Source of the DNA: an actinobacterium LLX17
GTDB taxonomy: Bacteria; Actinomycetota; Actinomycetes; Propionibacteriales; Nocardioidaceae
Assembly (NCBI GenBank): GCA_000471045.1
Contig: KI301992.1
Coordinates: forward strand, 2,240,060 to 2,304,059
Reading direction: 5' to 3'
DNA: 64,000 bases
Part shown: positions 1-31,007 of the stretch, in pieces
Layout: every line of letters starts with the position of its first letter
Numbering within the stretch: the first letter of the stretch is position 1
Translations under genes and position numbers: made by a program
The notes under the pieces: generated by a model
Told to the model about the DNA's origin: nothing
Databases searched by the model: none
Seen by the model: the letters and a program-made list of their open reading frames with translations, nothing else

Positions 1-783
1 TATGCGTTGCGCCAGTTTCAAAGTTTGCTGGCCATGGTTAGCCGTTACCTGTCGGTGGTTGCCCGCCAGGTCGCGGCCATCGCCGGGCACGCCGCCCTGC
101 ACCACGGCCACTCGAAACGTGCCCTCGGGTGAAGCGGAGTACGGCATCACCATGGTCGTGATCGAGACCGTGACGGCACCGACCATCACTACAAGATCCG
201 AGACCCCCTGTCGGGTCGATAGTCCCCCGAGGGCGAATCCGGCCGTCGCCACGACGAAACCGGTTCCCGAGATCCCCACGTACGGCAGGAGGTTCTCCCA
301 TGGTGTGTCGATCACCGTGACGCCCAACCGCCCCCAAGGCATCCCGCCGAGAGGCCAGACGCTTCTTGTCGTCTCGACGAGCACCCACACCGCGCCCGCC
401 CACACCGAACCTGCGGGAAGGCGACTGACGGCACGAACGCCCGCGACTGCGACGACGATCGCCAAAGTCTGCGTGCCGCCGAGCAGCACCCACGCCACTA
501 CGCCGATCGAGTCCACCAGCCACCACAGCAGGATCCCCATGAAGGTGAAACCAAAGCAGGCGCCTTGAAGCACGGCTGCCCACCAGGGGGCTCTCGTCAC
601 GGCAATCCAGAGCATGCCCATCGCGAGAGGTGAAAGCCAGCCGTAGCCGACTGGTTCGAAGGCAAGAGCGGCGACCACCCCACCGGTAAGAGCGATCGGC
701 ATCGTACGAAGTCCCCGCCGCACGACGCTCGGCCGGGACGGCAACATCCCGCGCTGCGAACGCGTGGCAGGTTCGACACTCAC
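1..783 (-). CDS. lnt: Apolipoprotein N-acyltransferase, N-terminal part (cut by window edge)
   Basis: Lnt adds the third acyl chain to the N-terminal cysteine of lipoproteins on the outer face of the membrane. The frame runs open from a GTG at 783 to the window edge (261 codons). It shows several hydrophobic segments, then the family signature MPWGRLG, and finally VAVVQGGVPGDG, which marks the start of the nitrilase-like catalytic domain; the catalytic Glu/Lys/Cys residues are outside the window. AGAGGGG lies about 7 bases before the GTG. It is the last visible gene of the copC/copD/ccdA operon, 82 bases after the DsbA-like gene. Since the operon and the region to its right encode several lipoproteins (TlpA-like, DUF305, F510_1955-like), a dedicated Lnt makes sense. 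Identity is firm; the link to copper lipoproteins is inference. Confidence 0.85.
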   Translation of the reverse strand, partial: MSVEPATRSQRGMLPSRPSVVRRGLRTMPIALTGGVVAALAFEPVGYGWLSPLAMGMLWIAVTRAPWWAAVLQGACFGFTFMGILLWWLVDSIGVVAWVLLGGTQTLAIVVAVAGVRAVSRLPAGSVWAGAVWVLVETTRSVWPLGGMPWGRLGVTVIDTPWENLLPYVGISGTGFVVATAGFALGGLSTRQGVSDLVVMVGAVTVSITTMVMPYSASPEGTFRVAVVQGGVPGDGRDLAGNHRQVTANHGQQTLKLAQRI

Positions 784-865
784 GGGGCGCCCCCTCTGGT
801 CGGAAATCCGCAGCGTCCCGCCGTCACGAGGAAACGCAGCTCGCCGAGCCCGCGGCGGAAGCGAC

Positions 866-1537
866 TCATCCCGCGGCGACGGCTCGCTCGAGTGCGTCCT
901 CGAAGTCGCCCATGGTGCGAGGCTGGATCACCTCACCGTCGAGGAACAAGCTCGGTGTGCCGCTGAGGCCGAGGGCCTGAGCATCCTGGAAGTCCGCCTC
1001 GACGCGAGCCGCGACGTCCTCGCTGGCGACGTCTTCGTCAAACTGAGCCATGTCGAGCCCGAGCTGCTCGGCGTAACTGCGGAACAGGGCGGACTGATCA
1101 TCCTGACTCTCACCCCAGGTCGTCTGGGTCTCGAAGAGTATGCGGTACATCGGCTCGAAGCTGCCCTGGCGGGCGGCCGCTTCGGCGGCATGGGCGGCGT
1201 TGCGTGAGTTGAGATGTCCGGGCAGAGGGAGGTAGCGGACGACGAACTCGACCTGGCCCTCGAAGTCCTGGCGCAACTGCTCGATCGCCGGGTAAAGGGC
1301 GCCGCAGGCCTCGCACTCGAAGTCGAGGAACTCAACGAGGACGGGAGAGCCGTCGGGAGCCTCCTGGAGGACGTGACTGTCGGGGCGCACGATTCGCGGA
1401 TCCTCGCTGCCGGTCGACTCCTGCACCTCAGGCTGATCGCGGACTTCTAGAGCCACGAAGACGCCAAGCACGGCGAGGATGAGCGTGACCAGGCTGGCGG
1501 TGATGACGGTGCGGCGGGTGCGGTCGCTGTTCTGCAT
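866..1537 (-). CDS. Membrane-anchored DsbA-like thioredoxin-fold oxidoreductase
   Basis: This 223-residue protein has an N-terminal transmembrane anchor (about residues 11-30), a short linker and a thioredoxin-fold domain of the DsbA/Thioredoxin_4 type. The active site is FECEACG (Cys75 and Cys78, a C-E-A-C motif) and the cis-proline loop reads SGTPSLFL near the C-terminus. The fold should face outward and exchange disulfides with secreted partners. It sits 28 bases downstream of copC and upstream of lnt on the same strand, with ccdA and a TlpA-like gene in the same operon, so an extracytoplasmic thiol-redox role connected with copper proteins is likely. The substrate is unknown. Confidence 0.85.
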   Translation of the reverse strand: MQNSDRTRRTVITASLVTLILAVLGVFVALEVRDQPEVQESTGSEDPRIVRPDSHVLQEAPDGSPVLVEFLDFECEACGALYPAIEQLRQDFEGQVEFVVRYLPLPGHLNSRNAAHAAEAAARQGSFEPMYRILFETQTTWGESQDDQSALFRSYAEQLGLDMAQFDEDVASEDVAARVEADFQDAQALGLSGTPSLFLDGEVIQPRTMGDFEDALERAVAAG

Positions 1538-1565
1538 GGGTCTCCGTCGATGGTCGGGGCGGGGG

Positions 1566-2120
1566 TCAGGCTCGGCGGCCGCGGAAGCGGCGGATCACGA
1601 CGACAGCGAGCATCACAGCGACCGCGCCGACCGCGAGCACGACGACGACCGTGTTGCTCTGACTGGATCCTTCGGAGTTGTCGGATGCCTCGGGGCTGGT
1701 CGTGGCGCGTTCCTCGGCAGGAGCTGGATCGTCGCCGCCGGGGGTCCCTTCGTGTTCGAAGGTGATGCTGCCTTCGATCGGGTGCCCGTCGGAGGAAGTG
1801 ACGCGGTAGGAGGCGGTGTAGATGCCGGGATCGGACGGTACGTAGGCCCTGGTCACGTTGTGGCCGGCGATGACGGGGTCGGCAGTGGAGACCTCGACGC
1901 CAGACGGGTCGATGACGGCGACGAATGCTGCAGTGCTAAGCACGTCGTTGTTGAAGCGGAAGGTTACGGCGTTCTCGGCGTTCGAGCTCACGGTGGAGCC
2001 GTCGGCCGGTGTCGACTCTACGAGCGCATCATGGGCAGCGGCGGGGCTTGCCGTGAACGCGGTTGCGGCGACGATTGCGGTGCCGGCAACAAGGAGCAGG
2101 GCGCTGATGGCGACTTTCAT
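1566..2120 (-). CDS. copC: CopC-domain copper-binding protein with C-terminal membrane anchor
   Basis: 184 residues: a signal peptide ending in AAA, then a CopC domain beginning HDALVESTPADG. The mature N-terminal His30, with Asp111 and His113 in SSDGHPIEG, matches the usual Cu(II) site of CopC. After an acidic Ser/Glu-rich linker a hydrophobic segment (about residues 157-176) and a basic tail (RRFRGRR) anchor it to the membrane, as in many Gram-positive CopC proteins. The start codon overlaps the stop of the upstream copD-like gene by 4 bases (ATGA), indicating translational coupling. Expected role: binding copper outside the cell and passing it to or from the CopD domain. Confidence 0.9.
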   Translation of the reverse strand: MKVAISALLLVAGTAIVAATAFTASPAAAHDALVESTPADGSTVSSNAENAVTFRFNNDVLSTAAFVAVIDPSGVEVSTADPVIAGHNVTRAYVPSDPGIYTASYRVTSSDGHPIEGSITFEHEGTPGGDDPAPAEERATTSPEASDNSEGSSQSNTVVVVLAVGAVAVMLAVVVIRRFRGRRA

Positions 2121-4048
2121 GAGGGTGTCCTTTCGTGACGTTCCCGGGGGGATCCCGGACTGGGGGTTTGGTTGCGTGGATTGCGCAGCAGGAGCAGGGT
2201 GGCGGTCATGACCAGGGGCGGAGCCGCGATGGCGAGGACGAGTGCGGCAGCCAGGGACTGGTCGGCGAGCAGGTCGGTGGCAAAGGGGCGGTCGAGTGCT
2301 CGCCAGTAGTCCTGCCCGACGGGGTTACTGGTTGCATGGAGCACCACCGCGAAGCACGCCGTGAAGACCGTCAGGGCGACGGCAGCGGTGGTACGGAGAC
2401 GAGCAGGTCGAGGGTGCACCAGCGAGGATCCGATGAAGCTCGTGAACAGCAGCAGCCCAATGCCCAAAGCGGCGAGCTCCATGCCCAGGTGTCCAAGCAG
2501 GCTGCTCATGACGCTGGTGAACAGCGGAGTGAAGTAGAGAACTGAGACGCTGGCGGCGGCGATCGCGACGGCAATGATGGGGTGCGTCAACGAGGTGATG
2601 ATTCTGGAGGCGGCGACGGCACCGAGCACGTCGCGAGGCGAGACCTCACCCTTCAGGCGTGCCGTCGGCACCACGCGGTAGGCCAAGGACCCCGGCGCGC
2701 CGAGCACGAGCAGCGGGGCAGCAACCGTGGCGAGCAGAAGCTGATTGGCCAGGTGTGCACTGAACAGGACGTGTGAGTAGGTGCCGAGGCCTCCGGTCGT
2801 GGCCCAGGCGATCACCGTCATGCCGGCGCACCAGGATGCCGTACGGGGCGCCGGCCACGGCTCGAGCCGACGACGCAGGGCCAGGACGGCGAGCACGTAA
2901 CCGATCAGTCCGATGCCGATCACTGCGAGGCCGGCGCCGCTGGGGTAGACCCCGAACAGCAAACGCGCGGCGGTGGGGGCCGGGGGCATAGGACCACCGA
3001 GGAGGTCCTCGGCCGGAGTCAGCAGGACGTCCCCCGCTGGCGGAGGTGTCCGCGACAGAGCCACGGCGACCCCCACGGCAGCGACCATCACAAACACCTC
3101 GCAGGCTGCGAGCCGCCGGAAACCCCCAGCACCGTTGATGATCTGTCGGCGCTGCCACCAGCCGAACGACCCCAGCGCGAGGTAAGCGAGGAGCTTCAAT
3201 CCGACCAGTCGCCCGTACGGCGAACTGACCAGCTGGTCCAACTCGGTGGTCCGCACCATCGCGCTTACGACTCCAGAGACACCGACGACTGCGAAGCAGA
3301 TGGCCGCAAGTCCCGAGTAGCGGCGCACCGCGGTGTCGAGCCGGCGGCTGCCGTGCGAGGCGAACCACCCCAGGGCGATCAGGCCCCCGACCCACACCGC
3401 TACTGCCGCGAGATGCAGATAGAGGCTCACGGAGGCCAGTGAGTGTGATCCGCCGGATGCGGCGTGGCCGGTGAGCGCCGATGGTGCGACCACCGCCAGA
3501 GCGAAGGCTGTCCATCCGAGGAGCGTGCGGGTACCGATCGTCCAGTGCAGCGCGAGCGCGAGCACGAGGGCTCCAGCCGCCTGCAGTGCGAGCCCTCGGC
3601 CGATCTCACTGTCACGTACGAGTGCTACGAGCAGACCGAATCGAAGTTGGCCGAGAGTCACGGCGAACACGTCGGCCGCGGTAGCCACGAACAGCACAAT
3701 CGTCGCGAGTACCCAGGTCCAGGCAGCGCGTCTGGCGATCCTGACAGCATCGACCGCGAGTCCCTGTGCGTCGGGCCCGGGCGAAGGGACCAGCAGTGCC
3801 GCCAGCGCCAGAAATCCCACAGTCGTGATGGCCGCGAGGTTCGCCGTCAAGGTCGCGGCGGGTACGAGCCAGCCCACCAGCACGCCGGGGTCGGGGATGC
3901 CCGGGACCGGCGGACGTGGCTCGGCGTCACCAAGCAGCAGCGACCCGACGAGCGCCAGAAAACCGATGGTCGAGGCAAGAGCGATACTGAGTCCGGTCGG
4001 CTGTCGCACCGGGTCCGCGGTGCGCGTGTTGATCACGTCGATCATCAC
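2117..4048 (-). CDS. copD: CopD / CtaG (caa3-type assembly) fusion membrane protein
   Basis: 643 residues with about 14-16 hydrophobic segments. The first half (to about residue 330) is CopD-like, with conserved membrane His and Trp positions such as HLAAVAVWVGGLIALG. The second half resembles caa3_CtaG (TYSHVLFSAHLANQLLLATVAAP followed by further helices with HLGMELAALG), a family used for copper insertion into cytochrome oxidase. The CopD-CtaG fusion is common in actinobacteria. Translation starts at GTG 4048, directly after the ccdA stop (4049-4051); the next codon is ATG, an alternative start. It should move or deliver copper across the membrane together with CopC, but whether this serves import, cuproenzyme loading or tolerance cannot be read from the sequence. 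Confidence 0.88.
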   Translation of the reverse strand: MMIDVINTRTADPVRQPTGLSIALASTIGFLALVGSLLLGDAEPRPPVPGIPDPGVLVGWLVPAATLTANLAAITTVGFLALAALLVPSPGPDAQGLAVDAVRIARRAAWTWVLATIVLFVATAADVFAVTLGQLRFGLLVALVRDSEIGRGLALQAAGALVLALALHWTIGTRTLLGWTAFALAVVAPSALTGHAASGGSHSLASVSLYLHLAAVAVWVGGLIALGWFASHGSRRLDTAVRRYSGLAAICFAVVGVSGVVSAMVRTTELDQLVSSPYGRLVGLKLLAYLALGSFGWWQRRQIINGAGGFRRLAACEVFVMVAAVGVAVALSRTPPPAGDVLLTPAEDLLGGPMPPAPTAARLLFGVYPSGAGLAVIGIGLIGYVLAVLALRRRLEPWPAPRTASWCAGMTVIAWATTGGLGTYSHVLFSAHLANQLLLATVAAPLLVLGAPGSLAYRVVPTARLKGEVSPRDVLGAVAASRIITSLTHPIIAVAIAAASVSVLYFTPLFTSVMSSLLGHLGMELAALGIGLLLFTSFIGSSLVHPRPARLRTTAAVALTVFTACFAVVLHATSNPVGQDYWRALDRPFATDLLADQSLAAALVLAIAAPPLVMTATLLLLRNPRNQTPSPGSPRERHERTPS

Positions 4049-4795
4049 TTAGACCGCCACCGCGTAGCCGCCGATAAGACCTTGCAGCGAGTTCACGAGG
4101 TCCTGCCAAGCACCGGTGATGAGCAGCACGCCGACGACAATCATCGACCCGCCGGCCGTCAGGGCGAGGCCCCGTTGGTGGCTTCGAGCCCACGCCGCGG
4201 CGGAGAGGGTGCGACGGTAGGCAATTGCGGCGGTGAGGAACGGGACACCGAGTCCGAGGCAGTAGAAGGCGGTCAGGAGGCTGCCGCGGGTTGCGCTGGC
4301 TTCAGTCAGAGAGAGCGAAAGGACGGCCGTGAGTGTGGGGCCGAGACACGGAGTCCAGCCCACGCCGAACAGCAGCCCCAACAGCGGAGCGCCTGCGAGC
4401 CCGACGCGCGGCGTGAAGCGGGGTGCTGCTCGTCGTTCGAGCACGGGGACCCGGCCCATGAACGCCAGCCCCATCAGGATCGTGACGACGCCCAGAACGA
4501 TGTTGACCGTGCGTTGGTGCTCGATGAGTCGGTAGCCGACAGCACCGAAAGCAAGGCCGTAGGACATGAAGGTGACGCTGAATCCGGCCACGAACAACGC
4601 CGCGCCCAGGACGACCCGCGAGCGTGATTCCCGGCCGAGGTCCTGCACGGCTTGCCCGCTGACGTAGGAGAGATAGCCGGGCAGCAGGGGCAGGATGCAG
4701 GGCGAGAAGAACGACACGAGCCCGGCGAGCAGGGCGATCGGTGCAGCGGCAATGAGCCCGCCGCTCGTCACTTGTGTGGCGAACCAGTCGCTCAT
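4049..4795 (-). CDS. ccdA: CcdA-type thiol:disulfide membrane transporter
   Basis: 248 residues, six or more transmembrane helices, with the two hallmark membrane cysteines: [19 protein letters not shown] (Cys33) and [10 protein letters not shown] (Cys150). CcdA/DsbD-beta proteins carry reducing equivalents from cytoplasmic thioredoxin to extracytoplasmic thioredoxin-like proteins such as TlpA/ResA, classically for cytochrome c maturation. Its start overlaps the stop of the TlpA-like gene by 4 bases (ATGA), pairing electron donor and acceptor in one coupled unit. No ResB/ResC genes follow; copD and copC do, so here the pair may reduce copper or cysteines of copper proteins rather than make cytochromes. 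Confidence 0.9.
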
Positions 4796-5409
4796 CGGTC
4801 GTCCCGGACGTCGAGGATGAGCTCGCGCAGGGTGCTTGGTTCGACCTGGTCCATGTACCGCACAGCCATGCGGCCCTCGGCGTCGAAGATGTAGGTCGTC
4901 GGCACCGCGACCGCAGGCAGGGACTCCGAGAAGCGGATCAGCATCTCGCCGCCGGAGTCACTCAGGCTGGGGTAGTTCATGCCGAAGTTGTTGGCGAACG
5001 CTCGCGAGGCGGTCGCGTTCTCCCGGATTGCGATGCCGAAGAACTGCACACCTTCGCCGCTGAACTCCTCGGCGAGGGCGATGAGATCCGGTGTCTCTTT
5101 GCGACACGGCGGACACCACGAGCCCCAGATGTTCACGACCAGGACTTGGCCGTCGAACTGTTCGGAGCTCAACGGTGCGCCGTCCAGGTCGAGGCCTTCC
5201 AGGACCGGCGCCGGGTCGCGCTCGCTCGAGGGCACGAACGTGATGGAGCCGTCGCCGGAGACGTATCCGCCTTCGGTCGCGTCGGTGGCGGTCGAACTCG
5301 AACAGGCGCCGAGAACTGCGATCAGGCTGAGTGCGAGGACTACGGCCAGGGATCGACGTGTGGTCGTCTGGCAGGCGGGAAGGGCAGGACAGGCTGGTGC
5401 CTGAGGCAT
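4792..5409 (-). CDS. TlpA/ResA-like thioredoxin-fold lipoprotein
   Basis: 205 residues from the ATG at 5409, which is preceded by CGGAG at 9-12 bases; a longer frame upstream lacks protein-like composition. A basic N-region, a hydrophobic core and the lipobox LGAC (Cys36) predict a lipoprotein. The thioredoxin/redoxin domain has the active site WGSWCPPC (Cys99, Cys102) and the cis-Pro motif [10 protein letters not shown]. The WCPPC site and the cap-like insert are typical of TlpA/ResA reductases outside the cell. Overlap with ccdA (ATGA) indicates that CcdA supplies its electrons. The substrate is probably a secreted or membrane copper or cytochrome protein (inference). Confidence 0.88.
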
Positions 5410-5452
5410 GAGGTCTCCGAGGGGGTGGCTGGGGCGGGTTGGAGGCCCGCCC

Positions 5453-5875
5453 TCAGCACCTCCTCGGCGCGTCGAAAGCTGTGGCAAGCAAAGGGATCGC
5501 GAACAGGGGCCACGACAGCACCTGTGCAGGCCGTGCACGAATCGCCATCGGACGAACGTCGCGGCGCGACGTTGTGAGGCAGATCGCGAGGACCAGCAGG
5601 AGGCAGGTGATCGCGAGGCAGGTGACGCCAGCGCCGTGGTCGACAGGGTCCGCGAGGCCCGCGTCGACGACCGACAGTACGTCAGTGACCGGGACCGCAG
5701 GAGTATCCGCGCCAAAAGCGGTCGCGCATCCAACGCCGACGGACAGGCCGAAGGAGAGTGCGAGAACAGCCAGTCCGCTGACCAAGCGGCGACGAAGCCG
5801 AGTCTTAGCTCGAGACCCCACGGCGGCACGTGGGGTCGTCGATGACGCCCGTTCCGTGCGATCGAGGCTCGACAT
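5453..5875 (-). CDS. Small two- to three-segment membrane protein of unknown function
   Basis: 140 residues from ATG 5875 (AGGA 8 bases upstream). Visible features are a basic N-terminus (RAKTRLRRR), two clear hydrophobic segments (VSGLAVLALSFGLSVGVGC and CLAITCLLLVLAICL), four or five cysteines in or next to them, and a final hydrophobic stretch (WPLFAIPLLATAF). It lies first in the ccdA/copC operon, 43 bases before the TlpA-like gene. I do not recognise a family. An alternative ATG at 5966 with a good GGAGAGAAG site would extend it by 30 residues across the palindrome at 5928-5946; I prefer the shorter start because the palindrome then lies in front of the gene. Confidence 0.55.
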   Translation of the reverse strand: MSSLDRTERASSTTPRAAVGSRAKTRLRRRLVSGLAVLALSFGLSVGVGCATAFGADTPAVPVTDVLSVVDAGLADPVDHGAGVTCLAITCLLLVLAICLTTSRRDVRPMAIRARPAQVLSWPLFAIPLLATAFDAPRRC

Positions 5876-6190
5876 GCGGATGATCCTAAGGGAAGTCGAT
5901 GGGCTTTCGGCCACCAGAGGCTGACCACTCCTACGATACGTAGGAGACTTCTGAAGCGTCGACATGGCTTCTTCTCTCCGAACGGTCGGCGCCACGACCG
6001 AGTTCCGCTGAAATCTGAGTTCAGTCGGCCGCTGCATGGACCAGCGTGCGCTGACTATTTGCCGCCCGCCTCAAGTGATGAACCGCTGGGGTCGTGCACT
6101 GTCGGATCCAACGCGCCCGCGCACGGACCCACGCTCGGGTCACGGGTAGCGAGGGGTGTGGGCGATGGAGCGCTGCGGCTGGCTCCGCTT
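5876..6190. other. Intergenic region between ctpG end and the copper/thiol operon
   Basis: A 315-base stretch without a convincing gene. It holds the candidate promoter and palindrome at 5928-5962. The rest (5970-6190) shows no gene, terminator hairpin or RNA that I can support. Confidence 0.5.
5928..5962 (-). promoter_or_regulatory. Candidate promoter with 19-bp perfect palindrome (operator)
   Basis: The palindrome CTCCTACGATACGTAGGAG (5928-5946) has 8-base arms around ATA. On the minus strand TATCGT (5938-5933) fits a -10 box and TCGACG (5962-5957) a weak -35 box with an 18-base spacer, so a bound dimer would block the promoter of the operon that reads leftward. The CTAC..GTAG shape resembles BlaI/CopY-type operators, but no such regulator gene lies in this window; it may sit to the left. 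Confidence 0.45.
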
Positions 6191-8089
6191 CTACCGCTTT
6201 CCGCGCGCAGCTCGCAGACCGTTGAGGATGACGACGACCTCGGCGATCTCGTGCACCAAAACCACGGCGGCGAGTCCCAGGATGCCGAAGAGAGCGAACG
6301 GCAGCAGCGCGGCGATGATCAGCAGCGAGAGGACGATGTTCTGGTTGATGATGTGCCGTGCGTGGCGGACGTGGTCGAACGCGCGCGGGATGAGACGCAG
6401 GTCGTGGCCGGTGAAGGCGACGTCCGCGGACTCGATCGCGGCGTCGGAGCCCGTCGCTCCCATGGCGATCCCGATGTCCGCGGCCGCCAGCGCCGGGGCG
6501 TCGTTGATCCCGTCGCCGATCATCGCCACCGATCCCACCTCGGACAGTTCGGCGATGGCGGTCGCCTTGTCCTCTGGGCGCAGTTCGGCGCGCACGTCCT
6601 CGATCCCGGCTTGCCCGGCCAGCGCCCTGGCGGTGCGGGCGTTGTCGCCGGTGAGCATGGTTACTCCGACGCCCTGGGCGGCGAGGGTGCGGACGACCTC
6701 GGGGACCTCGGGGCGCAGCTCGTCGCGGACGCCGATTGCGGCGACCGGCGCGCCGTCGCGGTGCACGATCACTACGGTCATGCCCTGCTCCTCCAGGTCC
6801 GAGACCTGGTCCGCGAGCGTCCCGGCGTCGAGCCAGCGAGGGCTTCCGACGGTGATCTTCCTGCCGTCGAGGTGGCCCTCGATGCCGCGACCTGCCTGCT
6901 CGGTCACCTCCTGGGCGGCGGGTGCGGTCGGTGCTGTGGCGGTGATTGCGGCAGCCAGCGGGTGGGTGCTGTGCTGTTCCAGCGCCGCTGCCCAGTGAAG
7001 CGCCTGCGCTTGGGTCACGCCGTCCGCGGTGAGGACCGCGGTTACCGCAGGCTCGTTGCGGGTCAGGGTGCCGGTCTTGTCCATGGCGACGTGACGGATG
7101 GTGCCGAACCTTTCGAAGGCCGCCCCGGACTTGATGATCACGCCGAACCGGCTGGCTGAGCCGATCGCGGCCACGACGGTGAGCGGCACGGAGATCGCCA
7201 GCGCGCACGGCGACGCCGCGACGAGCACGACGAGGGCGCGGGTCAACCACAGCTCCGGATCGCCGAGCAGCGAGCCGATCAGGGCGACCAGTGCGGCCAG
7301 GACGAGCACGCCGGGCACGAGCGGGCGGGCGATCCGGTCGGCGAGGCGGGCCCGGTCGCCCTTCTCCGCTTGCGCCTGCTCCACGAGCTCCACGATCGTG
7401 GTCAGCGAGTTGTCGGTGCCCGCTGCGGTCGTCTCGATCTCCAGGGCTCCGGCGGCGTTGATTGCCCCGGCGGACACCTCGTCGCCGGGCGCGACCTCGA
7501 CCGGGATCGATTCGCCGGTGATCGCCGAGGTGTCCAGGCTGGAGCGCCCGGACCGGACGATCCCGTCGGTCGCGATCCGCTCGCCGGGGCGCACGAGCAT
7601 GAGGTGCCCGACAGCGAGGTCCTTCGCGGGAATTTCGACCGAGGCACCATCGCTACGGACGGTCGCGGTCTCCGGGACGAGCTTGAGTAGCGCCCGCAGA
7701 CCGCCGCGGGCGCGGTCCATCGCCTTGTCCTCTAACGCCTCGGCGATCGAGTACAGGAACGCCAGCGCGGCGGCCTCCTCGACGTAGCCGAGGACCACCG
7801 CGCCGACCGCGCTGATCGTCATCAGCAAGCCGATGCCGAGCTTGCCCTTGAACAGCTTGCGGACTGCGTCGGGGGTGAACGTCGACGCGCCCAGCAGCAG
7901 GCCAATCCAGAACAGCGCCAGGGCGGGGGTCTCCAGCCCTGACCACTCAAGGACCAGGCCTGTGCCGAAGGCGACGCCCGAGAAGACCGGGATCATGATC
8001 CCGCGATCCCTCCACCACGGCCGCTCGCGCTCCTCATCGGCGTCTTCGGCCACCGTGGTCTCGTGCTCGCAGCCGCACGCCGCGCTCAC
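6191..8089 (-). CDS. ctpG: P1B-type heavy-metal ATPase, CtpG/CadA-like (Cd/Pb/Zn export)
   Basis: 632 residues from GTG 8089, whose GTGA overlaps the cmtR stop; a start further upstream would only read through cmtR. There is no N-terminal HMA domain, only a short Cys/His segment (CGCEHE). The core shows TGES, the membrane metal motif SPC (Ser293-Pro-Cys295), the phosphorylation site DKTGT (Asp337), the HP motif and GDGIND. SPC rather than CPC at this place is seen in a subgroup of P1B pumps; CtpG of mycobacteria is also linked to cmtR. Expected role is ATP-driven export of Cd(II)/Pb(II) and perhaps Zn(II). Regulated by the CmtR product of the same transcript. Confidence 0.88.
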   Translation of the reverse strand: MSAACGCEHETTVAEDADEERERPWWRDRGIMIPVFSGVAFGTGLVLEWSGLETPALALFWIGLLLGASTFTPDAVRKLFKGKLGIGLLMTISAVGAVVLGYVEEAAALAFLYSIAEALEDKAMDRARGGLRALLKLVPETATVRSDGASVEIPAKDLAVGHLMLVRPGERIATDGIVRSGRSSLDTSAITGESIPVEVAPGDEVSAGAINAAGALEIETTAAGTDNSLTTIVELVEQAQAEKGDRARLADRIARPLVPGVLVLAALVALIGSLLGDPELWLTRALVVLVAASPCALAISVPLTVVAAIGSASRFGVIIKSGAAFERFGTIRHVAMDKTGTLTRNEPAVTAVLTADGVTQAQALHWAAALEQHSTHPLAAAITATAPTAPAAQEVTEQAGRGIEGHLDGRKITVGSPRWLDAGTLADQVSDLEEQGMTVVIVHRDGAPVAAIGVRDELRPEVPEVVRTLAAQGVGVTMLTGDNARTARALAGQAGIEDVRAELRPEDKATAIAELSEVGSVAMIGDGINDAPALAAADIGIAMGATGSDAAIESADVAFTGHDLRLIPRAFDHVRHARHIINQNIVLSLLIIAALLPFALFGILGLAAVVLVHEIAEVVVILNGLRAARGKR

Positions 8090-8445
8090 GTGCGCGCCCC
8101 CGTCCCCCAGCATCCCGGCACGGTGCAGGCCGAGTCCATGCACGGGGCGCTCTCGTCGACCGCTAGCGTCACGTCGATGAGGGCCGTCAGCGCCGCGGTC
8201 AGGTGAGGATCGGCGATCTCGTAGCGGGTCTGCCTGCCCTCGGGCTCGGCGACGACGATCCCGCAGTCGCGCAGGCAGGTCAGGTGGTTCGACACGTTCG
8301 AGCGCGTCAGCACCAGCTCGCGCGAAATCACCGCTGGGTAGCTCGGCCCGTCGAGCAGGGCCATCAGGATCCGGGAGCGCGTCGGGTCGGCCATGGCCCG
8401 GCCGAGCCGGTTCATGGCGTCGAGACGTGAAGCAATGGTCAGCAT
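8086..8445 (-). CDS. cmtR: CmtR-type ArsR/SmtB Cd(II)/Pb(II) sensor
   Basis: 119 residues. The sequence follows mycobacterial CmtR closely: RLGRAMADPTRSRILMALLDG, the recognition helix LTRSNVSNHL, and all three metal ligands at the same numbers as in the characterised protein, Cys57 and Cys61 (NHLTCLRDCG) and Cys102 (SAPC). Three further Cys/His-type positions follow in the tail (Cys107, Cys112). This family represses the operon and lets go when Cd or Pb binds. The start has no Shine-Dalgarno sequence; a -10 box CATAGT ends 7 bases before the ATG, so the mRNA is probably leaderless. It is translationally coupled to the ATPase gene by a GTGA overlap. Confidence 0.92.
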   Translation of the reverse strand: MLTIASRLDAMNRLGRAMADPTRSRILMALLDGPSYPAVISRELVLTRSNVSNHLTCLRDCGIVVAEPEGRQTRYEIADPHLTAALTALIDVTLAVDESAPCMDSACTVPGCWGTGART

Positions 8446-8665: not shown

Positions 8666-9103
8666 GTGAGTGACGTGAGATGGCGACGCGACTCAGCGAA
8701 GGGTCCAGTTGCGCGCTCGGCCATTCTGGCTTTGCTTTGCGGGGCGATCGTCGTCGGCATTCTTGGGATGCACAGCCTTGGGGTGGCTGCGCAGGCGGCG
8801 ACGTCGCACCACTCGAACGTCAGTTCCTTCGACGGCGAAGGTCAACATTCGGTGTCTGGGCATGGACAGGATGCGGGCGAGGGTGGCGAGGGTGACTCCT
8901 CCTTCCTGTCCGCTTGCGGCGGGGTCATGCTCGCCTGCCTGACCCTGTTGATGGCTTTCGGCGCCTACTTGGTGCTTCGAAAGGCAGGACGGCGGCGGAT
9001 CCTGTGGACCCGTCTGCGGCCGTTCCTGTTCCGGCTTGGACACCCTCAGTGTGCTTTTCAGGTGATTACACCGCTACAACGCTCCTGCGTTATCCGCTGC
9101 TGA
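8666..9103 (+). CDS. Small histidine-containing membrane protein (DUF6153-like)
   Basis: 145 residues from GTG 8666 (an in-frame GTG at 8675 is the alternative). Two hydrophobic segments (SAILALLCGAIVVGILGMHSLG and GVMLACLTLLMAFGAYLVL) flank an outward-facing, His/Gly/Asp-rich loop that could bind metal. The first segment with GILGMHSLG resembles the small actinobacterial DUF6153 proteins often found beside DUF305 genes in copper loci. It is followed by the DUF305 lipoprotein after 64 bases on the same strand. Function unknown; family assignment is tentative. Confidence 0.6.
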   Translation: MSDVRWRRDSAKGPVARSAILALLCGAIVVGILGMHSLGVAAQAATSHHSNVSSFDGEGQHSVSGHGQDAGEGGEGDSSFLSACGGVMLACLTLLMAFGAYLVLRKAGRRRILWTRLRPFLFRLGHPQCAFQVITPLQRSCVIRC

Positions 9104-9167: not shown

Positions 9168-9740
9168 ATGCGTTCCAGCAAGAAGATCTTGGCGACCCTC
9201 GTCGCCCTCGCGGCAGCCGCGACTCTTTCCGCCTGTTCCGACTCAGACTCACCCTCCGGGGACAGCAAGAACTTCAACGAAGCAGACGTGAAGTTCGCCC
9301 AAGACATGATCCCGCATCATCGCCAAGCGACTGAAATGGCGGCGCTCGCGCAGGACCGATCAGTGAACGTTCAGATCTTGGAGCTCGCCGAGAGCATCGA
9401 GTCTGCCCAGGAGCCGGAGATCGAGACGATGACTGGCTGGCTCGAGGCGTGGGGTGAGGACGTGCCGCAGGAGATGTCCGGGGAGATGGACCACTCCAGT
9501 CACGCGGGCATGCCGGGAATGATGAGCGCCGAGGACATGGCGGCACTTGAGGGCGCAACCGGCCCCGAGTTCGACCAGATGTTTCTGACCATGATGATTC
9601 AGCACCACATGGGGGCGATCGAGATGGCCCAGGCGGAGGTCAGCGACGGCAAGTACGACGATGCGGTCAAGCTCGCTACTTCCATCGAGCAGGAACAGGC
9701 GGATGAAATCACCCTGATGGAGCAGCTGCTCAACCGCTGA
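9168..9740 (+). CDS. DUF305 lipoprotein (ferritin-like, copper-associated)
   Basis: 190 residues from ATG 9168 behind AGGAGACACAC; an ATG at 9129 would add 13 residues ahead of the signal peptide. The signal peptide ends in the lipobox LSAC (Cys23). Two repeats carry the DUF305 signature: FAQDMIPHHRQATEMA and FLTMMIQHHMGAIEMA, each with the His-His pair and conserved Met. A Met/His-rich loop (MSGEMDHSSHAGMPGMM) separates them. DUF305 proteins form four-helix bundles and are abundant in copper-resistance loci; extracytoplasmic copper binding is expected but not proven for the family. A strong hairpin follows the stop codon. Confidence 0.9.
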   Translation: MRSSKKILATLVALAAAATLSACSDSDSPSGDSKNFNEADVKFAQDMIPHHRQATEMAALAQDRSVNVQILELAESIESAQEPEIETMTGWLEAWGEDVPQEMSGEMDHSSHAGMPGMMSAEDMAALEGATGPEFDQMFLTMMIQHHMGAIEMAQAEVSDGKYDDAVKLATSIEQEQADEITLMEQLLNR

Positions 9741-9805: not shown

Positions 9806-10630
9806 ATGTTCCATCGCAAACTGTCGGCGTCCCTCGTGGCCATCACGCTTCTCGGATCCTGCGGCACGTCCCCCAACACCGTTGAGCCCGCGCTACAACC
9901 CTTCGGCCACGTCCACGGCCTCGGGACCAACCCTGCCGACGACCAGCTCTACGTCGCCACCCATAACGGGGTGTACGTGGTCGAGGACGGCGCTCCCCTA
10001 TCGGTCGGTGCCAACCGGCAGGACACGATGGGTTTTGAGGTGATCGGACCCGACCAGTTCGTCGCCAGCGGACACCCCGCCGAGCTGGATCAACCGAACC
10101 CCCTCGGCCTGATCTCGTCAAGCGATGCTGGGCAGAACTGGACCGGGCTCAGTCTCGTCGGCGAGGCCGACCTGCACGCGATCGACGTCGCGGGCGACGG
10201 ATCCCTCGTGGCTTTCGACGCCGGCCGCGAGCAACTCATCCGCTCTTCGGATCAGGGCAGAACCTGGACTCTCATCGCCACGCAGTCCGGCGTGATCGAC
10301 ATCGTCGCCCTGCCCATTTCACCCTTCGCTCTGCTCGTCACGACGGCGGACGGACAGACGCTGAACGTCGCCGCCGACGGGGTCTCGTCAGCGGCCCCAG
10401 CCCCGCCGGGACTCACCTATCTCGACGCCACCGCCGAGGGAACCGTTGTCGGCGTCGATGCCAACGGTGACGTGTGGCGAACCAATGCAGACGATTGGGA
10501 GAAGCTCGGGACCCTTGAAGGTGCTGCCTCCGCGATCTCAACAGCAGTAGAGACTTGGTACGTCGCGGTGGGTGACGACATCCTGGGCAGCAGCGACATG
10601 GGATTGACCTGGAAACCGATACTCCAGTGA
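9806..10630 (+). CDS. F510_1955-type Asp-box (BNR) beta-propeller lipoprotein
   Basis: 274 residues from ATG 9806, with a GGAAGG site upstream. Lipobox LLGSC (Cys19) predicts a lipoprotein. HVHGLG followed by DDQLYVATHNGVYVV is typical of the F510_1955 glycosylhydrolase-like family. Three Asp-box motifs are visible: SSDAGQNW, SSDQGRTW and SSDMGLTW, each expected on one blade of a sialidase-like propeller. No sialidase catalytic set is evident, so enzyme activity is doubtful. Members of this family recur in actinobacterial copper loci beside DUF305 genes. The stop overlaps the start of the next gene (GTGA). Confidence 0.8.
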   Translation: MFHRKLSASLVAITLLGSCGTSPNTVEPALQPFGHVHGLGTNPADDQLYVATHNGVYVVEDGAPLSVGANRQDTMGFEVIGPDQFVASGHPAELDQPNPLGLISSSDAGQNWTGLSLVGEADLHAIDVAGDGSLVAFDAGREQLIRSSDQGRTWTLIATQSGVIDIVALPISPFALLVTTADGQTLNVAADGVSSAAPAPPGLTYLDATAEGTVVGVDANGDVWRTNADDWEKLGTLEGAASAISTAVETWYVAVGDDILGSSDMGLTWKPILQ

Positions 10631-11421
10631 CAGAACAAGGGCGCCACCGTGCGTCGAGCTCACGTGGTCGGTCGTCGCGACACAGGCATCGGGCGCCGAA
10701 ACGTCACCACCTGCGTCGAGTCGTAGTTGTCACTGTCGCCCTAGTAGGCGGCACAGTTGTCCTCGCCGGGGTCCAGGCGCTCGAGCAGCAGGCCGGACCG
10801 AACGGCGACGCCGTGGGCACCGTCCCGCCGACCCCTGCGGCAACGGACCCCCTCGCGACCGAGGCGCTGACGCCCGTCCCTCCACCACCACCGCCGCCCG
10901 CTCCGGTGGTACCGCCAGCGGGTCCCGGAACATTCACTGTCGCCAGCGGCGAGACCGCACCCACCGGAACGGGCGGCCCGATCGTCACCTACCGCGTCGA
11001 GGTCGAGGACGGCCTCCCGTACGCTCCTCTCGAGTTCGCGAGCGCCGTCGACGCCACGCTCTCCAGCGGACAGGGATGGGCCACCAAGGGGTACAGCTTC
11101 GCCCGACAGGCCGCCGCCCCGCTGAGGATCGTGCTGGCATCACCGGCGACCACTGACACGCTTTGTGCGCCTCTACGCACCCGCGGCGAGGTGTCCTGTC
11201 GCAACGGCGACGTGGTGGCCATCAACGCTAAACGCTGGACCGAAGGTGCTGAAGCCTACGGTGGCGATCTGGACTCGTACCGCATCTACGTCATCAATCA
11301 CGAGGTCGGACACGCGCTCGGCCGACCACATGAGCAGTGCCCTCATCCAGGGGCCTTGGCTCCCGTCATGCTTCAGCAGACGCTAGGACTGGAAGGCTGT
11401 CGCGCGAACCCCTGGCCATGA
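10627..11421 (+). CDS. DUF3152 protein: membrane-anchored zinc-metallopeptidase-like
   Basis: 264 residues; GTG 10627 overlaps the previous stop by 4 bases. Order of parts: a basic His/Arg-rich cytoplasmic tail (residues 1-34), one transmembrane segment, a Pro-rich linker (PVPPPPPPPAPVVPP), then a DUF3152 domain. The domain contains HEVGHALGRPHEQCP (first His at residue 225), a full HExxHxxGxxH metzincin-type zinc site, and cysteines that could form disulfides (LCAPL, VSCRNG, EQCP, EGC). It should act outside the cell on an unknown substrate. Coupling to the F510_1955-like lipoprotein gene suggests a joint function. Confidence 0.85.
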   Translation: MTEQGRHRASSSRGRSSRHRHRAPKRHHLRRVVVVTVALVGGTVVLAGVQALEQQAGPNGDAVGTVPPTPAATDPLATEALTPVPPPPPPPAPVVPPAGPGTFTVASGETAPTGTGGPIVTYRVEVEDGLPYAPLEFASAVDATLSSGQGWATKGYSFARQAAAPLRIVLASPATTDTLCAPLRTRGEVSCRNGDVVAINAKRWTEGAEAYGGDLDSYRIYVINHEVGHALGRPHEQCPHPGALAPVMLQQTLGLEGCRANPWP

Positions 11422-13050: not shown

Positions 13051-13452
13051 TCAGAGAGTGGCGATCAGGGCGCGGCAGGCTTCCTCACAACGACGGCAGG
13101 ACTCGGCGCAGATCTTGCAGTGCTCGTGCATCTCTGCGTGCTGGGCGCACTCATCGCCGCACGCCTTGCACGCCTCCGCGCAGGCTTCCAGGAACACCCG
13201 CGTCACGTTCGTGCCGTAACCGGACAGTCGCGACAAAGCCTTGCCGGTCGCGACGCAGATGTCGGCACAGTCCAGATTGGTACGGATGCAGTCGGTGAGC
13301 TCGGCGACCATGTCCTCGCTCAAGCAGGCGTCAGCGCACGCCGTGCAGACCTGCGCGCACTCGAAACACGCGGCGATGCACTCGGCCAGCTTGTCTCGAT
13401 CAACGCCACTCAGGTCGTTCGGGTGCGCCTCGAGCATCTTCGCTTGCGTCAT
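13051..13452 (-). CDS. csp: Cytosolic copper-storage protein (Csp3-like four-helix bundle)
   Basis: 133 residues with 18 cysteines arranged as CxxxC pairs along predicted helices (CIAACFECAQVCTACADAC, TDCIRTNLDCADIC, EACAEACKACGDEC, HCKICAESCRRCEEAC). This is the pattern of the Csp family (DUF326), in which a four-helix bundle fills with Cu(I) bound by cysteine thiolates and assembles as a tetramer. There is no signal peptide, which points to the cytosolic Csp3 type. GAGGAGGAAAG precedes the ATG. It is divergent from the ArsR gene at 13582, so that regulator may control it. The expected role is buffering or storing excess Cu(I). Confidence 0.9.
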   Translation of the reverse strand: MTQAKMLEAHPNDLSGVDRDKLAECIAACFECAQVCTACADACLSEDMVAELTDCIRTNLDCADICVATGKALSRLSGYGTNVTRVFLEACAEACKACGDECAQHAEMHEHCKICAESCRRCEEACRALIATL

Positions 13453-14713: not shown

Positions 14714-14926
14714 ATGAACACCACCGAGTACCAGGTCACCGGCATGACGTGCGGGCACTGCGAGATGTCGGTCCGCGAGGAGGTCAGCACCGTTCCCGGC
14801 GTTCAGGGCATCGAGGTCAGCGCCCAGACCGGCAAGTTGGTCGTCACCTCCGCCACCCCCGTCGACGACGACGCCGTCCTCGCCGCGGTCGACGATGCCG
14901 GTTACACGGCGGTGCGCGCCTCGTGA
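14714..14926 (+). CDS. copZ: CopZ-type copper chaperone (HMA domain)
   Basis: 70 residues forming one HMA ferredoxin-like domain. The Cu(I) site is GMTCGHC in the first loop; the end reads [11 protein letters not shown]. CopZ carries Cu(I) in the cytosol and hands it to the CopA pump or to the regulator. AGGAGAAAGCG lies before the ATG. It is the first gene behind the CsoR-like operator and its stop overlaps the next start (GTGA), so the four-gene set copZ - secreted protein - copA - YHS protein is most likely one operon. Confidence 0.92.
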   Translation: MNTTEYQVTGMTCGHCEMSVREEVSTVPGVQGIEVSAQTGKLVVTSATPVDDDAVLAAVDDAGYTAVRAS

Positions 14927-15891
14927 ACACCGCAACCCGACTGGGCGCGTACGGCGCAGGACTGGCCCTCGTCTTCGGCGGCGCATTCGTCGCCGCCGAC
15001 GCCGGCGTCCCGCAGAGCACTGTCAGCAACTGGACCAAAGAAGCCGAAGGACACGACATGAACAACACCACCGGTGGCCACGGCGGCCACAGCGCCAGCG
15101 CCTCCACCCAGGCCAGCGCCGCTGTCCCCGGGGTCACCAGCGCCGTCGGAGGCTACCTGCTCACCCCCGTCTCCGCTCCCGCCCAGGCGGGCCGGACCGG
15201 GGACCTGTCGTTCCGCATCCTCGACGCAGAAGGCCAAGCCCTGACGAGCTTCGCCACCTCGCACGAGAAGGACCTCCACCTCATCGTCGTGCGCACCGAC
15301 GGCACCGGGTTCCGCCACGTGCACCCCACCATGGACGCCGACGGCACCTGGTCGCTGTCCTGGGAATGGGCCGCAGCGGGTACCTACCGGGTCTACACCG
15401 ACTTCGTCCCCGACGTCGACGGGGCAGCCGAGCCCATCACCTTGACCCGCACCGTCGAGGTTGGCGGCCAGGTCAGCCCGGCTACCCCCAAGGCCACCAA
15501 CACCGCGACCGTGGACGGGTACACCGTGGACCTGACCGGCGACGCGGTTGCCGGTTCCAGCTCCGAGTTGACCTTCAGGGTGTCGAAGAACGGAAAGCCG
15601 GTCACCAACCTGGAGCCCTACCTTGGCGCGTTCGCGCACTTGGTCGCGCTGCGCGACGGTGACCTGGCTTTCTTGCACGTCCATCCCGAAGGCGATGAGC
15701 CCACCGCTGGCGACACCGCCGGGCCGGATGTCGGGTTCGTCGCCGAGATGCCCACGCCGGGGCGGTACCTCCTGTACCTGGACTTCCAGATCGACGGCAA
15801 GGTCCACAGCGCCCCGTTCGTCGTCGACACGTCTGAAACCGACACCGATCCGGACTCCGGCACCGAGTCCGGTGACAACCACAGCCACTGA
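14923..15891 (+). CDS. Secreted or membrane-anchored copper-binding-like protein of the cop operon
   Basis: 322 residues from GTG 14923 (GTGA overlap with copZ). One N-terminal hydrophobic segment (about residues 6-25) can be an uncleaved signal anchor. A Met/His/Gly-rich stretch follows ([14 protein letters not shown]), then two Ig-like beta domains with repeated FRHVHP and FLHVHPEGD motifs and aromatic residues ([29 protein letters not shown]). The C-terminus is acidic with HSH. The His/Met clusters suggest extracytoplasmic copper binding. Related proteins lie between copZ and copA genes in other actinobacteria, but I know no proven function. It may receive copper from CopA. Confidence 0.75.
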
Positions 15892-30984: not shown

Positions 30985-31007
30985 GTTCGAGTCCCACGGG
31001 GCCTACC
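30985..31007 (+). other. tRNA 3'-end-like segment: candidate att site (right end of island)
   Basis: The 23 bases start GTTCGAGTCCCAC, a T-loop with the 3' half of the T-stem, and continue GGGGCCTACC, which reads as a 3' acceptor strand plus discriminator A and CC. The bases before it cannot pair to complete a T-stem, and there is no anticodon or D-arm, so it is only the 3' part of a tRNA gene. Islands that integrate into tRNA 3' ends leave exactly such a short repeat at the far end. The intact tRNA would be left of the window, on the plus strand. Isotype cannot be assigned. Confidence 0.6.

Follow-up and report, generated by a model that had tools for sequence, protein, structure and literature searches.

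Parts of the operon described here are known from metal-related systems, and as far as we found the bundle and its repeated assembly are undescribed so far. The operon joins a TlpA-like lipoprotein, CcdA, CopD-CtaG, CopC, a DsbA-like thioredoxin and apolipoprotein N-acyltransferase (Lnt) on an integrative island of the actinobacterium LLX17 (Nocardioidaceae), at the start of a 64,000-nucleotide stretch of its single contig (KI301992.1, bases 2240060-2304059 of a 3.0-Mb genome; the window hereafter). Among the closest described systems, the cop region cg3281-cg3289 of Corynebacterium glutamicum resembles the island in being copper-induced, in having a TlpA-like gene beside copper genes and in being held by its authors to be horizontally acquired; under excess copper its tlpA rose 236-fold, and among the chromosomal ccs genes a hemL-to-ccsB group rose 3.6- to 4.6-fold (PMC3140484). 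It differs in having a multicopper oxidase and CopRS, and its named genes, in the accessible part of the report, include no CcdA, DsbA, CopC/CopD-CtaG or Lnt, some genes having no assigned function (PMC3140484). In Mesorhizobium a ccdA downstream of cadA was induced more than 4-fold by zinc and cadmium and signal peptidase II more than 3-fold by zinc, and thioredoxins were induced as well (PMC3668242). The position of this ccdA behind a Cd/Zn P-type ATPase is that seen on the island, although the host is a proteobacterium and the accessible part of the account mentions neither Lnt nor CopD-CtaG (PMC3668242). The pbr lead resistance system, with its PbrA pump and PbrC signal peptidase (PMC4531530, accessible part), likewise bundles a lipoprotein-processing enzyme with a Zn/Pb-type pump, and LspA occurs in 32 of 68 relatives of our locus; the island, however, has Lnt and not LspA, and so lacks the combination of pump and signal peptidase II. 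The System II cytochrome c operon (TlpA/ResA-CcdA-ResB-CcsA) shares TlpA and CcdA with ours, and ResB is found in 37 of the 68 relatives, but profiles detect neither ResB nor CcsA in the operon or the island, and a full System II operon sits on the chromosome. Finally, the Scs proteins include CcdA/DsbD-like, DsbA-like and TlpA-like members linked to copper, whereas the island DsbA is nearer to DsbA-type entries and the island adds CopC, CopD-CtaG, Lnt and a Cd-type pump. The whole bundle is undescribed in the open-licence full-text literature as far as titles or abstract starts show, which is weak evidence of absence.

We read the operon, with moderate confidence, as an accessory module for envelope maintenance on a mobile island of mixed-metal resistance. 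Genes were called from the sequence and families were tested by Pfam and NCBIfam. In the order of transcription, with window coordinates unless the locus handle L003 is given, the genes are:

8086-8445, minus strand: CmtR-type ArsR repressor (NF047906, 176.9 bits against a cut-off of 150)
6191-8143, minus strand: P-type ATPase of the Zn/Cd/Pb family (TIGR01512), directly upstream of the operon
5453-5875 (or 5453-5965), minus strand: small membrane open reading frame (ORF) ending in PRRC, family unassigned
4792-5409, minus strand: TlpA/ResA-like thioredoxin lipoprotein (lipobox LGAC with C36; WCPPC; Redoxin/AhpC-TSA)
4049-4795, minus strand: CcdA membrane electron conduit (DsbD_TM; Cys33 and Cys150; 248 amino acids)
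2117-4048, minus strand: CopD-CtaG fusion (PF05425, PF09678)
1566-2120, minus strand: CopC copper-binding protein (PF04234; zero cysteines)
866-1537, minus strand: DsbA-like thioredoxin (CEAC active site; N-terminal hydrophobic segment; Thioredoxin_4/DSBA)
1-783, minus strand: Lnt, apolipoprotein N-acyltransferase, N-terminal half (TIGR00546); the whole gene, L003:17260-18843, runs past the window start

The original prediction, made from the window alone, was of a seven-gene operon on one strand. Six of its members are as named (TlpA, CcdA, CopD-CtaG, CopC, the CEAC DsbA and Lnt), while the seventh is the small orphan ORF and Lnt is cut by the window edge. From TlpA through Lnt the intergenic gaps are -4, 0, -4, 28 and 82 bp, and because of this spacing a single transcript seems plausible. 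Lnt scores 232.1 bits against a curated cut-off of 132.9 (TIGR00546) and has the catalytic E, K and C, so that by sequence it is an apolipoprotein N-acyltransferase. The CopC and CopD domains (PF04234, PF05425) are above cut-off in genes that overlap by 4 bp, that is, a CopC-CopD copper system. The absence of ResB/ResC from the operon, as predicted, was borne out: own profiles (E 1e-3) detected no ResB, CcsB, LspA or VKOR anywhere on the island. Past the window start the same-strand run continues with an orphan and a DUF3152 protein, then further copies of DsbA and CopC (65% and 32% identical to the respective first copy), an ArsR, a pair of CDF transporters and a PEMT/ICMT-like methyltransferase.

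The operon is carried on an integrative element of about 44 kb at a tRNA-Lys gene, the ends of which are:

L003:4750-4823: tRNA-Lys, containing the left copy of the repeat (L003:4802-4820)
30985-31003, plus strand: attR, 19-bp direct repeat of the tRNA-Lys 3' end

The two 19-bp repeats lie 44.26 kb apart, and the left end holds a tyrosine integrase (PF00589) and an rve-type transposase. With tRNA site, integrase and flanking direct repeats, this is an integrative genomic island. No conjugation family was found by Pfam among 30 further island proteins, a subset of the ORFs of which several gave no match at all. The tRNA-Lys looks like an integration hot spot, since in a genome of the same genus (G160) a related integrase, 41% identical over 328 amino acids, adjoins the same tRNA (L214:3239-4489). 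In two other relatives the tRNA-Lys adjoins the same PhoU-like left gene and the base after the core is that of the right end here; the right-hand flank gene was not found in these two, and among the matches listed from 31 genus genomes none spanned both flanks, so that an empty integration site is supported, not demonstrated. The rest of the island includes, among others, a pair of DUF305 proteins, a lipoprotein weakly matching BNR, DUF4396, one DUF326 and one YHS protein, HMA proteins, another P-type ATPase, which has an HMA domain, and MFS transporters. A dedicated thiol system concerned with copper had been proposed; the copper genes are indeed present, but with CmtR, the Cd-type ATPase and the CDF transporters the setting, judged by gene families, is mixed-metal and not copper alone.

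The chromosome has its own hemL-gpm-tlpA-ccdA-resB-ccsA locus (at 157 kb), against the concern, raised with the prediction, that other copies of ccdA and tlpA might be missing. The island TlpA is 46% identical to the TlpA of this ccs locus and the island CcdA 55% to its CcdA; there is also a chromosomal lnt (198.9 bits), a CopD-CtaG paralogue 57% identical to the island copy, and one VKOR. Since the chromosome has these separate copies, the island TlpA, CcdA, Lnt and CopD-CtaG are accessory duplicates.

We scanned genome contigs with 12 DsbA proteins of the kit (our word for the gene set at such loci) and obtained at least 527 relatives. The best 80 by DsbA similarity became loci, annotated by profiles built mainly from annotated plasmid loci, and the 68 of at least 15 kb were used for the counts. 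Among the matches listed, the closest DsbA relatives are from an actinomycete and from Aeromicrobium sp. Leaf350 (83-85% identical). TlpA and ArsR are each present in 48 of the 68 loci, followed by CcdA (44), Lnt (41), CopC (40), CDF (38), ResB (37), P-ATPase (35), LspA and CtaG2 (32 each), CopD-CtaG (29), VKOR (27), M23 (26) and CcsB (24); rarer members are M56 (18), DUF3152 (13), DUF305 (12), SURF1 (4) and CtaD (2). The commonest pairs of neighbours (same strand, no more than 400 bp apart) are TlpA-CcdA (31), CcdA-ResB (25), ArsR-ATPase (24) and DsbA-VKOR (23), while gene order is variable and sets are incomplete across loci. The predicted co-occurrence of lnt and ccdA with copC/copD was recovered, CcdA, Lnt and a Cop gene being found together in 27 of the 68 loci. 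The predicted separation from cytochrome genes holds at the locus itself but is only local: ResB and CcsB are both missing, within the stretch examined, from just 4 of these 27, as here. Thirteen annotated plasmid regions, chosen from matches, show varying parts of the set (Rhodococcus, Gordonia, Streptomyces, Kitasatospora, Citricoccus, Arthrobacter, Paenarthrobacter and Cnuibacter); in one of these regions Lgt adjoins Lnt.

A rival reading centres on cuproenzyme assembly: CcdA and TlpA would hold apocytochrome c and the cysteines that serve as copper ligands (in CuA of oxidase subunit II and in Sco-type chaperones) in the reduced state, CopC and CopD-CtaG would feed copper, and Lnt would mature oxidase or chaperone lipoproteins, so that respiration survives metal stress. 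The CtaG domain in the operon fits it, as do the relatives with ResB, CcsB (24/68), SURF1 (4/68) and CtaD (2/68), the annotation of CtaD beside the set on three Rhodococcus plasmids, with SURF1 on one of them, and the copper induction of ccs genes in C. glutamicum, as given in the accessible part of that study (PMC3140484). We nevertheless consider it unlikely, as no Sco, oxidase subunit, ResB or CcsB was found among the 30 further island proteins (Pfam) or by own profiles, and it leaves LspA, DsbA/VKOR and the Cd-type regulator and pump unexplained. As a separate observation, CtaD stands beside the kit on Rhodococcus/Gordonia plasmids at L042:1-1464, L043:23335-25113, L047:16274-18025 and L048:1445-3235, with no further oxidase subunit annotated within the stretches shown.

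For comparison, 60 control Lnt neighbourhoods were taken from a 148-genome class sample, 20 mostly from multi-Lnt genomes and 40 others. An additional kit family was present in 6 of them, clearly in L134, L135, L139 and L141 and by one weak match each in L144 and L174. Among stretches of at least 12 kb, 35 of 44 kit loci but 1 of 47 control regions have CcdA close to Lnt, the rows being related, so that a p-value is only indicative. Kit-type DsbA (above 270 bits; the next value is 144) occurs in 10 of the 148 genomes. A less biased sample, made up of 10 loci from 9 of these genomes, had metal genes nearby at 7 loci, CcdA at 5 and CopC/CopD-CtaG at 4, whereas 10 regions around other DsbA-like genes had no CcdA and one weak P-ATPase match. 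In the material examined, Lnt often belongs to the set in certain lineages only, above all Microbacteriaceae, Nocardioidaceae and Rhodococcus/Gordonia plasmids.

Trees of Lnt (49 kit and 60 other sequences, by a quick method that warned of joined long branches) and CcdA (61 kit and 30 other) bear on how such loci arose. Kit Lnt falls into clades of Microbacteriaceae (27 rows, support 100), Nocardioidaceae, including the island copy (12, support 93), and Rhodococcus/Gordonia plasmids (4, support 100), besides smaller groups. The Lnt tree has 8 changes of label between kit and other, at least 4 of them forced, and the CcdA tree 4, at least 3 forced. The result held when metal-linked second copies were relabelled as kit: at least 5 changes were then forced for Lnt (L134, L135, L139 and L141 moved), and the CcdA figures became 5 and 4 (L226 moved). 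The island CcdA and four other Aeromicrobium kit copies group with the ccs CcdA of their own genus (98/85), apart from the Nocardioides kit clade, while the island lnt belongs to a kit clade; because of this discordance the operon is, by its gene trees, a mosaic in which lnt and ccdA have different histories. The trees suggest that both genes joined such loci several times, and repeated recruitment of the same functions, the simplest reading, is the strongest argument for selection. The opposite view, that ordinary envelope genes ride passively on mobile elements selected for their pumps, draws on the variable gene order, the incomplete sets and the integrative element itself. We hold it to be very unlikely, as the same functions recur in kits that fall in several parts of the lnt and ccdA trees, and all 49 kit Lnt proteins, the island copy included, retain the catalytic E, K and C. 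As a side observation, on a contig labelled Planococcus (Bacillota; L100) the kit Lnt and CcdA nest within Microbacterium, probably through contamination or a mislabelled record.

The profile of the DsbA-like protein matches the DsbA entry 4pwo at 1e-19 and the copper-named structures 6nen (copper resistance protein) and 4gxz (suppression of copper sensitivity) at 5e-8 and 3e-7, and in 23 of the 68 relatives VKOR follows DsbA within 400 bp. Since the 4pwo match is by far the stronger and VKOR adjoins DsbA so often, an oxidase is more likely than an isomerase. A relay like that of Scs, in which CcdA, via TlpA or directly, would keep the DsbA-like protein reduced as an isomerase or reductase acting on copper-mis-oxidised proteins, is in keeping with the resemblance of the gene kinds to ScsB, ScsC and ScsD and with the two copper-named matches. 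ScsB is a DsbD-like protein with one or more periplasmic domains beside its transmembrane domain; no such domain was found in the island CcdA, which has 248 amino acids and DsbD_TM alone, and this, with the evidence for an oxidase, makes such a relay rather improbable. The ScsC of Proteus acts as an isomerase and allows swarming in the presence of copper, a further point in favour of the relay, whereas Salmonella ScsC is an oxidase (PMC5524982, accessible part), so that oxidase and isomerase functions overlap.

As partners of the thiol system, the original prediction had named two lipoproteins encoded nearby, on the opposite strand, where a third candidate client follows:

9168-9740, plus strand: DUF305 lipoprotein, its sole cysteine in the lipobox
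9806-10630, plus strand: F510-like lipoprotein with a weak BNR-repeat match, its sole cysteine in the lipobox
10627-11421, plus strand: DUF3152 protein with HExxH and four cysteines

With zero cysteines beyond the lipobox, the DUF305 and F510-like lipoproteins are ruled out as redox partners, although Lnt could acylate them. The proposal of a dedicated thiol system serving these two, apart from cytochrome genes, has in its favour their nearby genes and the presence of DUF305 in 12 of the 68 relatives; given the missing cysteines and the relatives with ResB, we find it barely credible. Both island CopC proteins are cysteine-free. Going by their cysteines, the DUF3152 proteins are better candidates, as possible clients of DsbA. 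A second island DUF3152 (L003:15849-16592), between Lnt and the second DsbA, is 53% identical and has HExxH and four cysteines at like positions.

An envelope-maintenance module, the reading that we favour, would work as follows. Copper, cadmium, zinc or lead at the outer face of the membrane would attack thiols, and the module would add metal-linked capacity for extracytoplasmic steps that depend on thiols. Disulfides would be formed by DsbA together with the chromosomal VKOR; CcdA would hand electrons to the lipoprotein TlpA for the re-reduction of wrongly oxidised or metal-blocked thiols; Lnt would finish lipoprotein N-acylation; and CopC with CopD-CtaG would bind and move copper. The Cd-type and HMA-type ATPases and the CDF transporters would lower cytoplasmic metal, and the module would keep the exposed envelope working. 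Metal induction here, the direction of electron flow, the clients and the benefit are what we infer; the clients of the reducing branch are likely to be chromosomal apocytochromes or copper chaperones. Lnt has a historic link to copper tolerance in that Escherichia coli CutE is Lnt, a housekeeping gene located off metal islands. The accessible parts of the published accounts report that copper impairs lipoprotein acylation in E. coli (PMC6538781, PMC6593411) and that copper targets thiol:disulfide oxidoreductases as well as the biogenesis of cytochrome c (PMC7558416).

Several results weigh against this reading. The island itself has no LspA, ResB, CcsB or VKOR by profile, and we saw on it no evident client of the reducing branch. 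DsbA is not a plain duplicate, its sole match outside the island being remote (40.7 bits, at 431 kb). The 80 loci are the best by DsbA similarity of at least 527, and several of them are near-copies; of the 68 counted, 6 have none of five scored gene groups. In the less biased sample Lnt was near kit-type DsbA in none of the 10 loci, so that the linkage of the gene set is real yet loose and incomplete. Label changes in the trees may be losses as well as gains.

Upstream of the small ORF there is a candidate regulatory site:

5929-5945, no strand: perfect palindrome with 7-bp arms and a 3-bp spacer, core CTACG-N3-CGTAG at 5931-5943; candidate operator

In the entire genome its 15-bp form is found at a single site. 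CTAC-N5-GTAG palindromes are found at this position, at L003:15829-15841 and in loci L052-L131. Nine of 13 related palindromes lie upstream of kit genes, in zones that make up 21% of the sequence (p 3e-4, a value inflated by related loci). The total in the 80 loci (13) is about that expected from base composition by our own estimate; position and spacing alone argue for the site, the counts by spacing being 13 for N5, 2 for N4 and 1 for N6, yet 12 for N3. The CTAC-N5-GTAG palindrome may be an operator; we take it to resemble BlaI/CopY operators, and the one BlaI-family match of the genome lies at 1442.7 kb.

The small ORF at 5453-5875 had zero matches in Pfam/NCBIfam (E 0.01) and in a tblastn search of 72,556 plasmid records (E 0.01), and among the fetched loci only copies of itself were found and no other relatives. 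The small membrane protein at 8666-9103 also ends in RC; it matches DUF6153 below cut-off, and relatives of it are encoded in L054 and L196. Elsewhere in the window, the DUF326 protein (13051-13452) is cysteine-rich by Pfam and bears a likeness to copper-storage proteins, and a 322-amino-acid ORF (14923-15891) between an HMA protein and a P-type ATPase has no Pfam match. No tRNA was found inside the window, and Rfam gave nothing at gathering score in positions 1-40000.

More tentatively, it is possible that mobile elements repeatedly assemble, from local housekeeping genes, spare copies of enzymes that work outside the membrane and are poisoned by soft metals, and place them beside metal-sensing regulators and pumps. 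If so, the set backed up would be disulfide formation and reduction, cytochrome c and oxidase assembly, and lipoprotein maturation. Pumps, binders and oxidases are the usual explanation of metal resistance; here resistance would come from sustained envelope biogenesis as well as from metal removal. There would then be a reason for the puzzling second lnt, lspA, ccdA, resB and VKOR genes on actinobacterial islands and plasmids, and the back-up copies would name the vulnerable steps of the actinobacterial envelope, testable gene by gene.

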